From assembly GCF_015767245.1 (NCBI RefSeq), contig NZ_JADOTV010000001.1, forward strand, positions 556,896-620,895: DNA of 64,000 bases, given 5' to 3'. This document shows positions 11,556 through 30,894 of the stretch, in pieces (the first letter of the stretch is position 1; each line of letters opens with the position of its first letter). Source of the DNA: Aureivirga sp. CE67. Its GTDB lineage: Bacteria; Bacteroidota; Bacteroidia; Flavobacteriales; Flavobacteriaceae. The position numbers and the translations under genes were made by a program. The notes under the pieces are model-generated. The model saw nothing but the letters and a program-made list of their open reading frames with translations. It ran no database searches and was not told where the DNA came from.

Positions 11556-13940
11556 ATGAACCGAATTATAACACAATTGTTTTTTTTCCTTTTCGTAGTT
11601 TTTGGATTACAACAAAATTTTGCGCAAAAAGGAAATGTTCAAATTATTGGAAAAGTAGTGGAAGAAGCTAACCAGCAGCCAATTGCTTTTGCAACAGTTA
11701 TTTTGAAAAACAAAAACACGAATGAAAACATTTCTGGAACTACGACTTCGGATGATGGTAGTTTTGAGATGACAAGTAAAACTCCTGATTTTTATATCGA
11801 GGTAAGTTTTATGGGATTTGCTACAAAAACTATTAAAAACTTTACGACAAAAAATGGTCAAGCTGATTTTGGACTTATTGTTTTAAAGGCAGATGTAGAA
11901 ACTTTGGAAGACGTGACGATTATTGCTGAAAAATCGCAAACAGAATTCAAATTAGACAAAAAAGTTTTTAATGTTGGAAAAGATTTAATAAGTTCTGGTG
12001 CAAGTGCGATGGAAGTATTGAATAATGTTCCGTCTGTAAATGTTAGTATTGAAGGTGCAATTAGTTTGAGAGGAAGTGAAGGAGTTCAGATTTTGATTAA
12101 TGGAAAACCTTCTGTTTTGACAAATGGAGATAGTAATGGACTTGGAACAATCACTGCTGACATGATTCAGAGTGTAGAGGTAATTACAAATCCGTCTGCG
12201 AAATATAATGCGGAAGGAACTTCTGGAATTATCAATTTGATCTTGAAAAAAGATGAGAAAAAAGGTATTAATGGTTCTGTTACTTTAAATACTGGTTCTC
12301 CGAACAATCATAGTGTTGGTTTGAGTTTAAATAAAAGAACAGAGAAATTTAATATTTTCAGTCAATTTGGAGTTGGTAGAAGAACTTTCCCTTTTGAGTC
12401 TGAAAGAACAAATACGTATCCTGCAACTGCAACTTCTACGGAAAGAGAATTGACTACAATTGGAGACGGGAATAAAAATGAAAAATTCTACAATGTAGTT
12501 TTAGGAACAGATTATCATATTAATGAGAATAATGTAATTACACTTTCGGGAAATTTCGCTTTTGAGGATGAAAGTGAAGATTCTGATTTAGCTTATTACA
12601 ATTATTTGGCTGGAACTTTAAACGAAACTACTTATAGAAACGAGAATACAACTGCTACAAATCCAAAATGGCAGTACGATTTACAATACAAAAAAGACTT
12701 TGAAGATCATAAAGACCATTCTTTATTATTAAGTGCTACAGGTTCTTTCTTTGGAAAAGATAAAAAATCATTATTTGAAGATATCAATTCTACAAATAGC
12801 TCTGATTTACAAAAAACAGCTACTGACTTTAAAGAAGCAGAATATTCTTTCAAATTAGATTATACACATCCTTTTTGGGAAAAATATAAATTTGAAACAG
12901 GTTTTCAGTACGATATGAATGATGTATCAAACGATTATTCTGTAGCAAACTTGATTAATGATGAATATATTATTGATCCAAACTTCACGAATATTTTCGA
13001 TTATGATCAGAAAGTTTTAGGTGTTTACGGAACTACTTCCTATGAGGGAGAAAAATGGGGAATCATGCTTGGACTTCGTTTAGAAGATACAAACGTAAAT
13101 ACTTTATTAAAAAATACGAACGAGAAAAACGATCAGAAGTACACAAACCTTTTCCCTAGTTTACATTCTTCTTATAAGTTTACAGACGATTTTTCTATGC
13201 AAGTTGGATATTCTAGAAGAATCCGTAGACCAAATCTTTGGAACTTAAATCCTTTTACATCTTTTAGAGATAAATTTAATATCTCTGCAGGAAATCCAAA
13301 CTTACAACCAGAATTTACAGATTCATATGAGTTTACTGCAATTTATAAATTCAACAAAGGAAATGTAAACTTAGGAGTGTATCATTTATATACAACGGAT
13401 GTAATGGAGCGAATTACTTCTACAGATGGTTTGGTTTACATTACACAACCAGAAAATATTGGAACAAATGCTGCGACTGGTTTAGAGTTAAATATGAAGT
13501 ATAATCCTTTCCGTTGGTTTACATTAACTGGTAACTTTAATTATAACTATTTCGATAGAAAAGGAGATTATGAAGAAACTTCTTTCGATTTTACAGGAGA
13601 TCGTTTTACATCAAGAATGACAGGGAAATTTAAACTTCCTGCAAAATTTGATTTAGAAGTTAGTGGAAATTATAGTTCAAAATATAAAACATTACAAGGA
13701 GAGAATAATGACAATCTGTTTGCAAACCTTGGTGTTCGTAAGAAAATATTAAAAGGAAAAATGGTTTTAAACCTAAGTGTTCGTGATGTTTTTGCTTCAA
13801 GAGTTTTTGAAAGCTTTAGAAACATCGATGGAAACACAGTTTCTTCTACATATAAGAGAGGACGTTTTGTAACATTCGGTGTAAGTTTCGGATTTGGTAA
13901 AGGAGAAGCAATGGAATTCTCTGGACATAAACGATTCTAA
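11556..13940 (+). CDS. TonB-dependent outer-membrane receptor family protein
   Basis: 794 aa. Signal peptide residues 1-23, then a carboxypeptidase-regulatory-like domain ('IIGKVVEEANQQPIAFATVILKNKNT' region). A plug domain follows ('SGASAMEVLNNVPSVNV', 'SLRGSEGVQILINGKPSVL', 'QSVEVITNPSAKYNAEGTSGIINL'), and then a long beta-barrel that ends with an aromatic residue ('FSGHKRF'). It is of the OMP_b-brl_3 type: large Bacteroidota receptors without a SusD partner. The next gene is not a SusD homologue, so polysaccharide uptake is not indicated. The ligand is unknown; peptides, metal chelates or signalling are all possible. No terminator is visible directly after it. Confidence 0.92.
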   Translation: MNRIITQLFFFLFVVFGLQQNFAQKGNVQIIGKVVEEANQQPIAFATVILKNKNTNENISGTTTSDDGSFEMTSKTPDFYIEVSFMGFATKTIKNFTTKNGQADFGLIVLKADVETLEDVTIIAEKSQTEFKLDKKVFNVGKDLISSGASAMEVLNNVPSVNVSIEGAISLRGSEGVQILINGKPSVLTNGDSNGLGTITADMIQSVEVITNPSAKYNAEGTSGIINLILKKDEKKGINGSVTLNTGSPNNHSVGLSLNKRTEKFNIFSQFGVGRRTFPFESERTNTYPATATSTERELTTIGDGNKNEKFYNVVLGTDYHINENNVITLSGNFAFEDESEDSDLAYYNYLAGTLNETTYRNENTTATNPKWQYDLQYKKDFEDHKDHSLLLSATGSFFGKDKKSLFEDINSTNSSDLQKTATDFKEAEYSFKLDYTHPFWEKYKFETGFQYDMNDVSNDYSVANLINDEYIIDPNFTNIFDYDQKVLGVYGTTSYEGEKWGIMLGLRLEDTNVNTLLKNTNEKNDQKYTNLFPSLHSSYKFTDDFSMQVGYSRRIRRPNLWNLNPFTSFRDKFNISAGNPNLQPEFTDSYEFTAIYKFNKGNVNLGVYHLYTTDVMERITSTDGLVYITQPENIGTNAATGLELNMKYNPFRWFTLTGNFNYNYFDRKGDYEETSFDFTGDRFTSRMTGKFKLPAKFDLEVSGNYSSKYKTLQGENNDNLFANLGVRKKILKGKMVLNLSVRDVFASRVFESFRNIDGNTVSSTYKRGRFVTFGVSFGFGKGEAMEFSGHKRF

Positions 13941-14021
13941 AACACTAATTAACAGTTAAATGTACGGTTCGAAATTTTAGAATAAATCGAAAAATACTTT
14001 TATAATAAAATATAATATTAC

Positions 14022-14098
14022 TATATTAGTAATCGGTAGGAGCCTTCCTACCCTCTTTTTCATAGCAATTTTTCCCCACTTTTTAAGTGGGGTTTTTT
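14022..14098 (+). ncRNA. Putative small RNA, unit 1 of a four-copy family
   Basis: Hairpin GGTAGGA-gcct-TCCTACC at 14035-14052, linker 14053-14073 starting 'CTCTTTTTCATAGCAA', and terminator stem CCCCACTT/AAGTGGGG at 14074-14092 with a T-run. The promoter box is degenerate here (TATATTAG at 14022-14029, no TTG at -33). The one change in the hairpin loop (T for C) keeps the stem intact. The range includes the -7 box; the RNA itself should begin near 14035. Confidence 0.7.
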
Positions 14099-14260
14099 AT
14101 TTCTTTATTTTTTATTCATTTTGCTTTTTAAAACGTGTTATTTTTACATTTATTTGATTCAATTCTAGTTTTTTATTCAAAATCCATAATTCAATATTTA
14201 TTTACCTAGGAAAATTTTAATTTTTTTCAATATTTCATACTAAGTATTTATACGTAGTTT

Positions 14261-14290
14261 TTTTCTATTAAATTTTTATTCGTATATTTG
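14261..14290 (+). promoter_or_regulatory. Promoter of small RNA unit 2
   Basis: The -7 box TATATTTG is at 14283-14290. The -33 position, exactly 19 nt upstream, reads TTT instead of TTG. This fits the Bacteroidota primary sigma factor consensus. Confidence 0.7.
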
Positions 14291-14297
14291 AACCTGT

Positions 14298-14365
14298 GGT
14301 AGGAGCCCTCCTACCCTCTTTTTCATAGCAATTTTTCCCCACTATTAGTGGGGTTTTCTTTTTTT
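14298..14365 (+). ncRNA. Putative small RNA, unit 2
   Basis: Hairpin GGTAGGA-gccc-TCCTACC at 14298-14315, the same linker, and a terminator CCCCACT-att-AGTGGGG at 14337-14353 with a T-run to 14365. The terminator loop differs from the other copies while the stem is kept, which argues for selection on structure. A TATATTTG box ends 7 nt before the hairpin. Confidence 0.78.
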
Positions 14366-14541
14366 AGGACCTACCTAACTTTTATTTCAATTTTTATTTT
14401 ATTCTAAAATAATTCAAGTTACTTCTGTAAGAAACTTATATTATCACTAATTATGAAATATTTTATCATAAATACAATGTATTTCAATGTGTCTGAAGTA
14501 CCTAATTCATGGTATTTTTCATTACAAGATGTTAAATAGCA

Positions 14542-14571
14542 TTGTTATTTAAAAAACTCAACGTATATTTG
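14542..14571 (+). promoter_or_regulatory. Promoter of small RNA unit 3
   Basis: TTG at 14542-14544, 19 nt spacer, TATATTTG at 14564-14571: a full match to the Bacteroidota consensus TTG-N19-TAnnTTTG. Confidence 0.82.
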
Positions 14572-14578
14572 TAGCTGT

Positions 14579-14641
14579 GGTAGGAGCCCTCCTACCCTCT
14601 TTTTCATAGCAATTTTTCCCCACTTTTTAAGTGGGGTTTTT
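14579..14641 (+). ncRNA. Putative small RNA, unit 3
   Basis: Hairpin at 14579-14596, linker 14597-14617, terminator stem 14618-14636 plus T-run. It is preceded by a perfect TTG-N19-TATATTTG promoter. The flank after the terminator (TTTATTTTATAGATATTCC) is shared with unit 4, which points to recent duplication. Confidence 0.8.
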
Positions 14642-14811
14642 ATTTTATAGATATTCCTATTTTTCTTTTAATATTATTTTTAAAATTTTACACTGTTTTT
14701 TTCTTAAATAATTCTTCTGAAACCAAATGAGTCTATTCTCGTAGTTGGAATTTATTTTTCTTCCTTAAATGATCCTTTTCATTTTTCTCAGTTAATCTGT
14801 ACTTCCTTTTA

Positions 14812-14971
14812 GAGCCTGTTTAAAATTATATCAGAATTTATTTTATAGCTTATTGAATTGCTATTTTGCCGACTTTTTGGGAGTGCATAGCATCGCTATG
14901 GACGAGAAAAAAGACAAAAAAGAGCTTTTAAGAAGCATATAAATTTTTTTGATAGAAATTTAAACAGGCTC
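14812..14971. mobile_element. MITE-like element, 160 bp
   Basis: Perfect terminal inverted repeats of 13 bp (GAGCCTGTTTAAA ... TTTAAACAGGCTC) extend with mismatches to about 27 bp. A 3-bp direct repeat TTA borders both ends (14809-14811 and 14972-14974). The interior is itself a long imperfect hairpin centred on CATAGC-atc-GCTATG (14886-14900). There is no coding capacity. GAG tips with a TNA target fit the IS1031 group of the IS5 family (family knowledge; assignment tentative). Confidence 0.75.
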
Positions 14972-15029
14972 TTAATTTTATTCACCTAATATCAAATTGT
15001 TAAAGTTGAGTTTACCATGTTAAAATTTA

Positions 15030-15059
15030 TTGTTTTAAAAAAATATCATTTTATATTTG
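15030..15059 (+). promoter_or_regulatory. Promoter of small RNA unit 4
   Basis: TTG at 15030-15032, 19 nt spacer, TATATTTG at 15052-15059. The hairpin of the RNA starts 7 nt after the box. Confidence 0.82.
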
Positions 15060-15065
15060 ACCCGT

Positions 15066-15129
15066 GGTAGGAGCCCTCCTACCCTCTTTTTCATAGCAAT
15101 TTTTTCCCCACTTTTTAAGTGGGGTTTTT
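15066..15129 (+). ncRNA. Putative small RNA, unit 4
   Basis: Hairpin at 15066-15083, linker 15084-15105 (one extra T), terminator stem 15106-15124 plus T-run. It is preceded by a perfect TTG-N19-TATATTTG promoter. The unit is bracketed by a direct repeat, 'TCAAATTGTTAAA' plus a near-copy tail, at 14992 and 15207. Confidence 0.8.
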
Positions 15130-15426
15130 ATTTTATAAATATTCCATTTTATCTTTTTTAAAACTGTTTTTTGCTTTTTTAATATGCAGTAATAGAATAA
15201 TCTAATTCAAATTGTTAAAATCGAGCTCAAATAAACTATATAAAAAGTTAAATTTCAAAAACTTACACTCAAAACAGTTATCTAAAACATTTCTTTCTAG
15301 ATATTTATTTTATTGACATCATGAAGAATTTTAAAATCTAAAAACCATAGCTCTTATTGTTAAAAAACCGTTTTAACTATTATAAGTTATGATTTCCCCA
15401 TAATTTTGCAGAAAAATTTATAAAAC

Positions 15427-15663
15427 ATGAATTTAGATATTTCTTATGTAGAAATGGTAGGTTACTTAGCCTCTGTTCTATTAATCATTGCATTTACTTT
15501 AAAAAACATTCGTTCACTTAGAATTGTTAATACGTTAGGTTGTTTTACTTTCATGATCTACGGTGTAATGCTAGACATTGCATGGCCAATTGTTATTACA
15601 AATGCTTTTATTTTTATTACCAATTTATACTATTTATTTCTAAAAAAAAGAGTAGATTCGTAG
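15427..15663 (+). CDS. Small membrane protein, YgjV-like
   Basis: 78 aa with three hydrophobic segments. The layout 'EMVGYLASVLLIIAFTLKNIRSLRIVNTLGCFTFMIYG' region followed by 'PIVITNAFIFITNLYYLFLKK' resembles the YgjV inner-membrane family, in which a Pro-containing helix pair is repeated. Its function is unknown. A -7-like box TAATTTTG at 15401-15408 lies 18 bp before the ATG. The gene is followed after 29 bp by two glycosyltransferases in the same direction, so they may be co-transcribed. Confidence 0.75.
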   Translation: MNLDISYVEMVGYLASVLLIIAFTLKNIRSLRIVNTLGCFTFMIYGVMLDIAWPIVITNAFIFITNLYYLFLKKRVDS

Positions 15664-19205: not shown

Positions 19206-19315
19206 GGAGCTTCCCATTTTTCTTCGTTTCCAAAAAACTCAGAAAAAGGTCGGGCTTTCCGCTATATCTTTTGCTCCGTACCTCCGCAAAAGGATGCCGC
19301 TGCAATCCCTAAGCC
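19206..19315 (+). repeat. Intergenic repeat copy A
   Basis: Runs from 'GGAGCTTCCCATTTTTCTTC' to 'GCAATCCCTAAGCC', with a middle box 'GGTCGGGCTTTCC' and an inner hairpin TTTTGC/GCAAAA. About 110 bp; copy B at 30737-30861 is nearly identical outside the inner loop. No reading frame of note. Confidence 0.85.
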
Positions 19316-19483
19316 ATAGCACAAAGATATTCCAAAAACCAAAACAAAAAACCTCAAAAAACTACAATTTAGACAGAAGATTCTAATTTCGTTTTTGAGA
19401 AAAATAAAATGAAGTATCTATAAACAGAAAAACATGTTAGGAAATTATCCTAACATGTTAGTATTTTTATAAAAATTAAAATC

Positions 19484-19760: not shown

Positions 19761-19832
19761 TAGTCCGTAGGGGAATCGAACCCCTGTTACCAGGATGAAA
19801 ACCTGGCGTCCTAACCCCTAGACGAACGGACC
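19761..19832 (-). tRNA. tRNA-Glu (UUC), copy 5 in transcription order
   Basis: 72 nt cloverleaf: acceptor GGTCCGT/ACGGACT, anticodon stem CCAGG..CCTGG with loop containing TTC, T-arm CAGGGGTTCGATTCCCCT region. CCA is not encoded. It is identical to its four neighbours and closest to rpsT. Confidence 0.95.
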
Positions 19833-19855
19833 ATTAAAAAGTTATTAAAAAAAAG

Positions 19856-19927
19856 TAGTCCGTAGGGGAATCGAACCCCTGTTACCAGGATGAAAACCTG
19901 GCGTCCTAACCCCTAGACGAACGGACC
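19856..19927 (-). tRNA. tRNA-Glu (UUC), copy 4
   Basis: Identical 72 nt gene with anticodon TTC, separated from the next copy by a 23-nt AT spacer (TTATTAAAA-like). Confidence 0.95.
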
Positions 19928-19949
19928 ATAAAAAGTTATTAAAAAATCG

Positions 19950-20021
19950 TAGTCCGTAGGGGAATCGAACCCCTGTTACCAGGATGAAAACCTGGCGTCC
20001 TAACCCCTAGACGAACGGACC
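19950..20021 (-). tRNA. tRNA-Glu (UUC), copy 3
   Basis: Identical 72 nt gene; spacers on both sides are 22 nt. Confidence 0.95.
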
Positions 20022-20043
20022 ATAAATGTTTATTAAAAAATCG

Positions 20044-20115
20044 TAGTCCGTAGGGGAATCGAACCCCTGTTACCAGGATGAAAACCTGGCGTCCTAACCC
20101 CTAGACGAACGGACC
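20044..20115 (-). tRNA. tRNA-Glu (UUC), copy 2
   Basis: Identical 72 nt gene; 22-nt spacers on both sides. Confidence 0.95.
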
Positions 20116-20137
20116 ATAAAAGTTATTAAAAAATTAG

Positions 20138-20209
20138 TAGTCCGTAGGGGAATCGAACCCCTGTTACCAGGATGAAAACCTGGCGTCCTAACCCCTAGAC
20201 GAACGGACC
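20138..20209 (-). tRNA. tRNA-Glu (UUC), copy 1, promoter-proximal
   Basis: Identical 72 nt gene, first to be transcribed. The leader from the likely start point is about 40 nt. Confidence 0.95.
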
Positions 20210-30736: not shown

Positions 30737-30861
30737 GGGAGCTTCCCATTTTTCTTCGTTTCTAAAAACTCAGAAAAAGGTCGGGCTTTCCACTATATCT
30801 TTTTTGCTAAAGCAGCTGAATGAAGAAAAGCAAAAAAGGATGCCGCTGCAATCCCTAAGCC
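30737..30861 (+). repeat. Intergenic repeat copy B
   Basis: Same boxes as copy A ('GGGAGCTTCCCATTTTTC', 'GGTCGGGCTTTCC', 'GCAATCCCTAAGCC'). Its inner region is longer, with TTTTTTGC ... GCAAAAAA as stem. It lies 32 bp after the amidase stop, before tRNA-Arg. Confidence 0.85.
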
Positions 30862-30894
30862 AAAAAAATCGTTTCAAACGAATCAAGAAGAAAA

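Follow-up and report, generated by a model that had tools for sequence, protein, structure and literature searches.

Four short repeated units lie within 1.1 kb of the window, the whole stretch of 64,000 nt from Aureivirga sp. CE67 analyzed here. Each is, as we read it, probably a gene for a multicopy, trans-acting base-pairing small RNA (sRNA), whose linker would act as a seed for start codons and for partner sites at the 3′ ends of other RNAs. The family to which the units belong, its anatomy, its conservation, and the co-occurrence of complementary sites with the sRNA can be read directly from genome sequences, and the anatomy and this co-occurrence are our reasons for proposing a base-pairing sRNA with seed pairing at start codons.

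The units, all found between 14022 and 15129 as the original prediction had placed them, occupy ~65 nt each on the forward strand and read as a promoter, a 5′ hairpin, a linker of 21 to 22 nt, and an intrinsic terminator; ORFs of 60 aa or more are absent from 13941–15426, in agreement with the description of this 1.1 kb as free of protein genes. In every unit, the predicted 7-bp hairpin (GGTAGGA/TCCTACC) begins 5 to 7 nt past a −7 box, the linker CTCTTTTTCATAGCAATTTTT is the same save for one extra T in unit 4, also as had been claimed, and a terminator of the form CCCCACT..AGTGGGG plus T residues stands behind the linker. Unit 1 has the −7 box TATATTAG at 14022–14029, the hairpin GGTAGGA-GCCT-TCCTACC at 14035–14052, the linker at 14053–14073, and the terminator at 14074–14098; its promoter, previously called decayed, is indeed mismatched, but the term is a little strong because the box is only one mismatch from the consensus TAnnTTTG. 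Unit 2 comprises the −7 box TATATTTG (14283–14290), hairpin (14298–14315), linker (14316–14336), and terminator (14337–14357), the loop of which (ATT) differs as stated, whereas the stem, said to be kept, is shorter, as is the loop. The exact TTG-N19-TATATTTG promoter attributed to units 3 and 4 is present in both: unit 3 has the −33 TTG at 14542–14544, 19 nt ahead of the −7 box TATATTTG at 14564–14571, followed by the hairpin (14579–14596), linker (14597–14617), and terminator (14618–14641), and unit 4 has the −33 TTG at 15030–15032, again 19 nt ahead of the −7 box TATATTTG at 15052–15059, followed by the hairpin (15066–15083), linker (15084–15105), and terminator (15106–15129). Boxes were assigned from sequence, and hairpins, linkers, and terminators from sequence and predicted fold, which gives two hairpins per window unit. 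In the window, these folds fit an unpaired, conserved seed (complementary sites are described below): the linker core CATAGCAA is mostly unpaired in all four units (0.86–0.96). Averaged over 123 units folded with their flanks, however, it is only 52% unpaired.

The array is flanked on one side by an outer-membrane beta-barrel gene and on the other by a 78-aa ORF, for which Pfam gave no match. A 36-nt hairpin-plus-linker pattern, searched with up to three mismatches allowed, has five matches in the 4.8-Mb genome, all with zero mismatches, against none for the reversed pattern used as a control, so this recurrence is not due to chance. In total, the window genome (G000, 4.81 Mb) carries three more copies outside the array: the one at C13:33777 has the same hairpin as the array, and those on C23 and C44 have a different one, the C23 copy lying directly behind dnaJ (DnaJ by Pfam). 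Aureivirga marina (G001), a flavobacteriacean of the same genus, has six units, two of them syntenic with the four of the window, and therefore the copy number of the array differs within the genus. The two Aureivirga genomes have 6 to 7 copies at four places, the window's four forming one tandem array. Between units 3 and 4 lies a MITE-like element of 168 bp (14808–14975) with 29-nt inverted ends (GAGCCTGTTTAAA...TTTAAACAGGCTC); the rest of the window has no further occurrence of its end motif.

To place the units among flavobacterial genomes, as the original prediction had proposed, we used a small covariance model of hairpin and linker (R1; cutoff E ≤ 0.001), which has matches in 341 of 397 Flavobacteriaceae genomes and in 297 of the 330 good ones. 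Searches with the linker pattern found copies in other genera with a wholly different yet paired hairpin, and a pattern scan of GTDB contigs returned at least 118 stretches, the titles of which name Flavobacteriaceae genera or uncultured Flavobacteriia/Bacteroidetes, with one Cryomorphaceae. Of 119 unique units, a set that excludes units with a flank shorter than 80 nt or with identical flanks, 99 form a 5′ stem of 7 bp or longer (15% in shuffles), and distinct stems are carried by 97 of 118 units. That the units are free-standing genes is supported at the level of consensus, by the exact TAnnTTTG that 79 of 118 units carry ahead of their hairpin (2% in shuffles) and by the terminators of the four window units. 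Hairpin and terminator vary in sequence with pairing mostly kept. The linker CTTTTTCATAGCAATTTT is invariant, in the 119-unit set by construction, yet the R1 search, which tolerates changes, also returns mostly intact-linker scores (~28.5 bits; part of this check covered 76 of the 118 contig loci). Family-wide, no part of the unit varies less than the linker, which supports the earlier view of a short-RNA family with the linker as its functional part. Five genomes (L059, L094, L110, L111, L112) each contain two tandem units with two hairpin types, an arrangement whose sequences suggest an old duplication. The weak matches inspected outside the Flavobacteriaceae are mostly coding- or chance-like in appearance, and order-wide homologs were rejected on this basis. 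One locus in a Flavobacteriales genome outside the family (L209) has a hairpin followed by the linker-like CTCTTTTTTATAGCAA with no obvious terminator; it is possibly a distant relative or a chance match.

The commonest genomic place of the units is behind dnaJ. With the first unit of each locus taken, 68 of 118 contig loci have a member of the DnaJ cluster as the nearest upstream gene in the same orientation, with GrpE ahead of DnaJ in 61 of these 68; both are protein clusters, one member of each having been checked by Pfam. At 15 loci, the downstream cluster is aconitase (Pfam on the representative), at a distance of at least 480 nt. The copy behind grpE-dnaJ is the commonest and probably the ancestral one.

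The linker is also found in 23 IMG/VR stretches, 17 of which have a terminator hairpin after it by eye (15 by the automatic test) and 7 of which carry, in addition, a 5′ stem no shorter than 6 bp. Neighboring genes in six of these viral stretches match tape measure, portal, RecT, SbcC, ParB, or integrase families. A shared version of the unit, with the hairpin GGTAGT/ACTACC (a variant of it in L407), occurs in the viral contigs L386, L392, L394, and L407, where it lies near regulators, ParB-like genes, or recombination genes. In L399 and L405, an ORF on the opposite strand begins at the linker match, with the full 18-nt linker complement at the start codon, and one of these two ORFs resembles by eye a DNA adenine methylase. 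A search of 50,697 annotated phage records with one 161-nt query gave no relatives.

The reverse complement of the linker, AAAATTGCTATGAAAAAG, is readable as a translation start, which is a plausible role for it. A search for long complementarity to the linker yielded few extra sites, and in 5 of 20 stretches from this search (L292, L296, L297, L303, L305), an intrinsic terminator stands immediately behind the anti-linker. The complement UUGCUAUGAAAA indeed recurs directly ahead of intrinsic terminators, mostly in 3′UTRs. With a dedicated pattern (TTGCTATGAAAA, 12 to 42 nt, TTTTTT) scanned over 299 genomes, matches were obtained in at least 115, including sRNA genes read on their reverse strand and start-like sites; by eye, at least 29 anti-linker/terminator sites in at least 24 genomes were picked among the matches listed, and 26 of the 29 pass an automatic hairpin test. 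A pattern in which the five bases before ATG were scrambled gave 14 sites in 13 of the 299 genomes, and terminators were found at none of the 14 (one scramble was used).

Presence of these sites follows presence of the sRNA. In the genus of G150, taken as Flavobacterium from its sample size and its named relatives, 82 of 199 genomes have the linker, and 31 of the 82 carry anti-linker/terminator sites vs. 1 of the 117 others (Fisher p = 4e-13, a value that overstates independence because the genomes are related). Genomes with a variant linker were counted as lacking the sRNA in this split, and the sole linker-less genome with a site (G674) has a weak hairpin there. Terminator strings are distinct in 34 of the 35 cases in this comparison, with some clearly homologous. 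At the family level, R1 matches 23 of the 24 genomes with sites (G184 is the exception), a co-occurrence that is uninformative against the background of 341/397. Predicted pairing of 45 sites with the linker has a mean energy of −20.3 kcal/mol vs. −5.1 kcal/mol for shuffles, the sites having been chosen for a 12-nt match. No perfect anti-linker/terminator site was found in the window genome, whose one listed pattern match is a copy of the sRNA. In G003 (L355), the anti-linker lies within the loop of what may be a hairpin (CTCGTGTAAGG/CCTTACACGAG), with a T-run after it.

Among 52 anti-linker sites, 37 lie downstream of an ORF of 45 aa or longer, no more than 110 nt past its stop codon; for 33 of the 37, this distance is at most 22 nt. 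Pfam searches of 36 site-bearing proteins (L292, with its site 107 nt from the stop codon, was excluded) identified fasciclin in 14, YceI in 3, CsbD in 2, and an outer-membrane barrel in 2 (one below the curated cutoff), with one each of ferritin-like DUF2383, peroxidase, 1-Cys peroxiredoxin, histidine kinase, DUF3179, DUF6327, DUF6952, and a T9SS-sorted protein, and gave no match for the remaining 7. The fasciclin, YceI, CsbD, and similar site genes are what we take to be stress or envelope genes. Fasciclin and CsbD sites are found in different genera, and YceI sites in several Flavobacterium genomes. The exact 9-mer core is present in only 2 of 30 fasciclin 3′UTRs sampled irrespective of site, both already known; thus, the fasciclin link is recurrent rather than general, and a general fasciclin 3′UTR rule was rejected. 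Other sites have no ORF. Four of these (L340, L342, L345, L352) share a 5′ part (GAAACATAAA..CTAAAAAG), an anti-linker ahead of a terminator, and a sigma54-like −24/−12 box (TTGGCA-N5-TTTGNA), and another has TATATTTG 33 nt upstream. By their sequences, these sites look like stand-alone anti-seed RNAs; Rfam gave no match for L340, L342, and L352, the three loci searched.

A second class of sites, weaker than the 3′-end class, lies at start codons (UUGCU-AUG-AAAA) of genes encoding secreted proteins or lipoproteins. ATG sites without a terminator number 23 in the 82 linker genomes vs. 11 in the 117 others (p = 0.0017, likewise inflated by the kinship of the genomes), and it is mainly on this comparison that the class rests, since natural start-codon context alone favors TTGCT 2.8- to 3.6-fold over the scramble. 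Among the examples, recognized by eye from sequence, are sulfatase-like genes (L309, L410) and a ComEC-like gene (L293, L318), each kind seen in two genera, as well as lipoproteins. Predicted partners in the window's own organism are weak: the genome has only two start-codon sites, with one mismatch each, at a membrane-protein-like gene (L029) and a lipoprotein-like gene (L030). Long gene-start complementarity as the only target class was rejected, as there are few extended sites per genome and the reversed control is similar in many genomes; some extended gene-start sites are coding coincidences (e.g., L286/L287).

We propose a mechanism in which transcription, pairing, blocking, and titration are inferred steps. 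The unit's own sigma-A type promoter would start a transcript of ~65 to 75 nt just ahead of the 5′ hairpin, and hairpin and terminator would cap the two RNA ends, presumably for stability. The single-stranded linker seed CUUUUUCAUAGCAAUUUU would then pair with UUGCUAUGAAAA sites in other RNAs. At start codons of secreted-protein and lipoprotein genes, seed pairing would block initiation. The sites before terminators belong mostly to the 3′UTRs of stress and envelope mRNAs (fasciclin, YceI, CsbD, peroxidase, peroxiredoxin) and in a few cases to stand-alone RNAs, and once the stress genes are switched on, these partner ends would titrate the sRNA or be stabilized or destabilized by it. Whether the 3′ ends act as sponges or as targets is about an even question. 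We give slightly less than even chances to the branch of this explanation in which the pairing is real and the 3′UTR sites are regulated targets, with altered mRNA decay, instead of sponges: that sites turn up repeatedly in fasciclin, CsbD, and YceI genes is easier to explain if these genes are the regulon, but the ORF-less anti-seed elements, four with the sigma54-like box and one with TATATTTG upstream, are sponge-like. More tentatively still, the sRNA could be a family-wide hub with an invariant seed, in which anti-seed sites have been gained repeatedly and independently, the 3′ ends of the stress regulon set the level of free sRNA, and phage copies of the seed enter the network.

Two other explanations dispense with pairing. 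The linker might be the site of an RNA-binding protein and the units CsrB-like protein sinks, the complementarity in mRNAs being incidental; an invariant U-rich linker between two variable hairpins and the variable copy number are what such a sink would predict, but we regard it as unlikely, as the linker reverse complement before terminators tracks sRNA presence (31/82 vs. 1/117) and the one scramble tried does not. It is still harder to credit that the units are mere transcription terminators or MITE-like repeats that spread without RNA function. The exact promoter in 79/118 units, the paired but variable 5′ stems, the invariant linker, and the recurrent dnaJ place all speak against it, as does the absence of inverted ends common to the units, even though 12 Flavobacterium-genus genomes without a strong R1 match have a terminator after dnaJ with no linker seen and a MITE-like element lies inside the array. 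No inverted pair encloses each unit among the inverted pairs of the array region, where the AT-rich pairs I2 and I5 enclose units 1 and 2 only; the units as transposon or MITE ends are thus unsupported, as is the concern that the family might be the ends of a known transposon.

The preferred reading, a base-pairing sRNA, was also compared with known RNAs. A match to Flavo-1, raised as a possibility in the original prediction, is not borne out: the Rfam covariance model (RF01705) has no match in 13940–15430 up to E = 10, and the identity is excluded because Rfam places Flavo-1 only at 19244–19319 and 30775–30865. These two RNAs are unrelated to the units; the second adjoins a tRNA gene. Five tandem tRNA genes of equal score and one direction occupy 19761–20209. 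No Rfam 15 family matches the units or the other loci searched at the gathering threshold, and the best score for the units, from anti-hemB, is 23.4 bits vs. a threshold of 49.5, mainly via the terminator. The Qrr RNAs of Vibrio are reportedly several near-identical short sRNA copies with their own promoters and terminators and a common seed, and ChiX/chbBC and GadY/gadX are said to be sponge or 3′UTR partner cases. LhrC of Listeria, in the available part of its description, has the same multicopy design (PMC4132741). Relative to LhrC and Qrr, the units have another sequence, another phylum, a family-wide distribution, a freely varying 5′ hairpin, and a seed complement that sits before terminators. 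The sRNA sponges and 3′UTR partners described in the accessible portions of PMC12559287 and PMC9732341 likewise have a partner site able to titrate the sRNA or be controlled by it, whereas the site here recurs in many unrelated 3′UTRs and tracks sRNA presence. Like the units, Flavo-1 is a Bacteroidetes RNA motif in the same window, with the units not among its matches (RF01705; PMC2864571, as far as the available text goes). A transcriptome paper on F. psychrophilum presents 85 new RNAs; Rfp18 of that species, in the text available to us, is likewise flavobacterial, conserved beyond the species, active on secreted-protein mRNAs, and predicted to pair via a third stem-loop (PMC9723704). That description sets the unit apart, which has two predicted hairpins, a single-stranded seed, and no third stem-loop, and identity with Rfp18 was rejected; a unit copy may be among the Rfp1–89 RNAs of Table S8 of the same paper. 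A match of the site string in PMC7311995 is due to chance, being the start of the enterobacterial gene yahO. No description of the unit RNA was found in the literature searched.

To our knowledge, post-transcriptional control in Bacteroidota is poorly known. If the proposed reading is true, the units would represent a core sRNA in a major family of marine and soil bacteria, without an Rfam 15 match and with a ready list of partners. The linker-less genomes of the genus Flavobacterium would serve as natural nulls, copies on viral contigs are also at hand, and the action of sRNAs in flavobacteria and 3′UTR sponging there would become directly testable questions.
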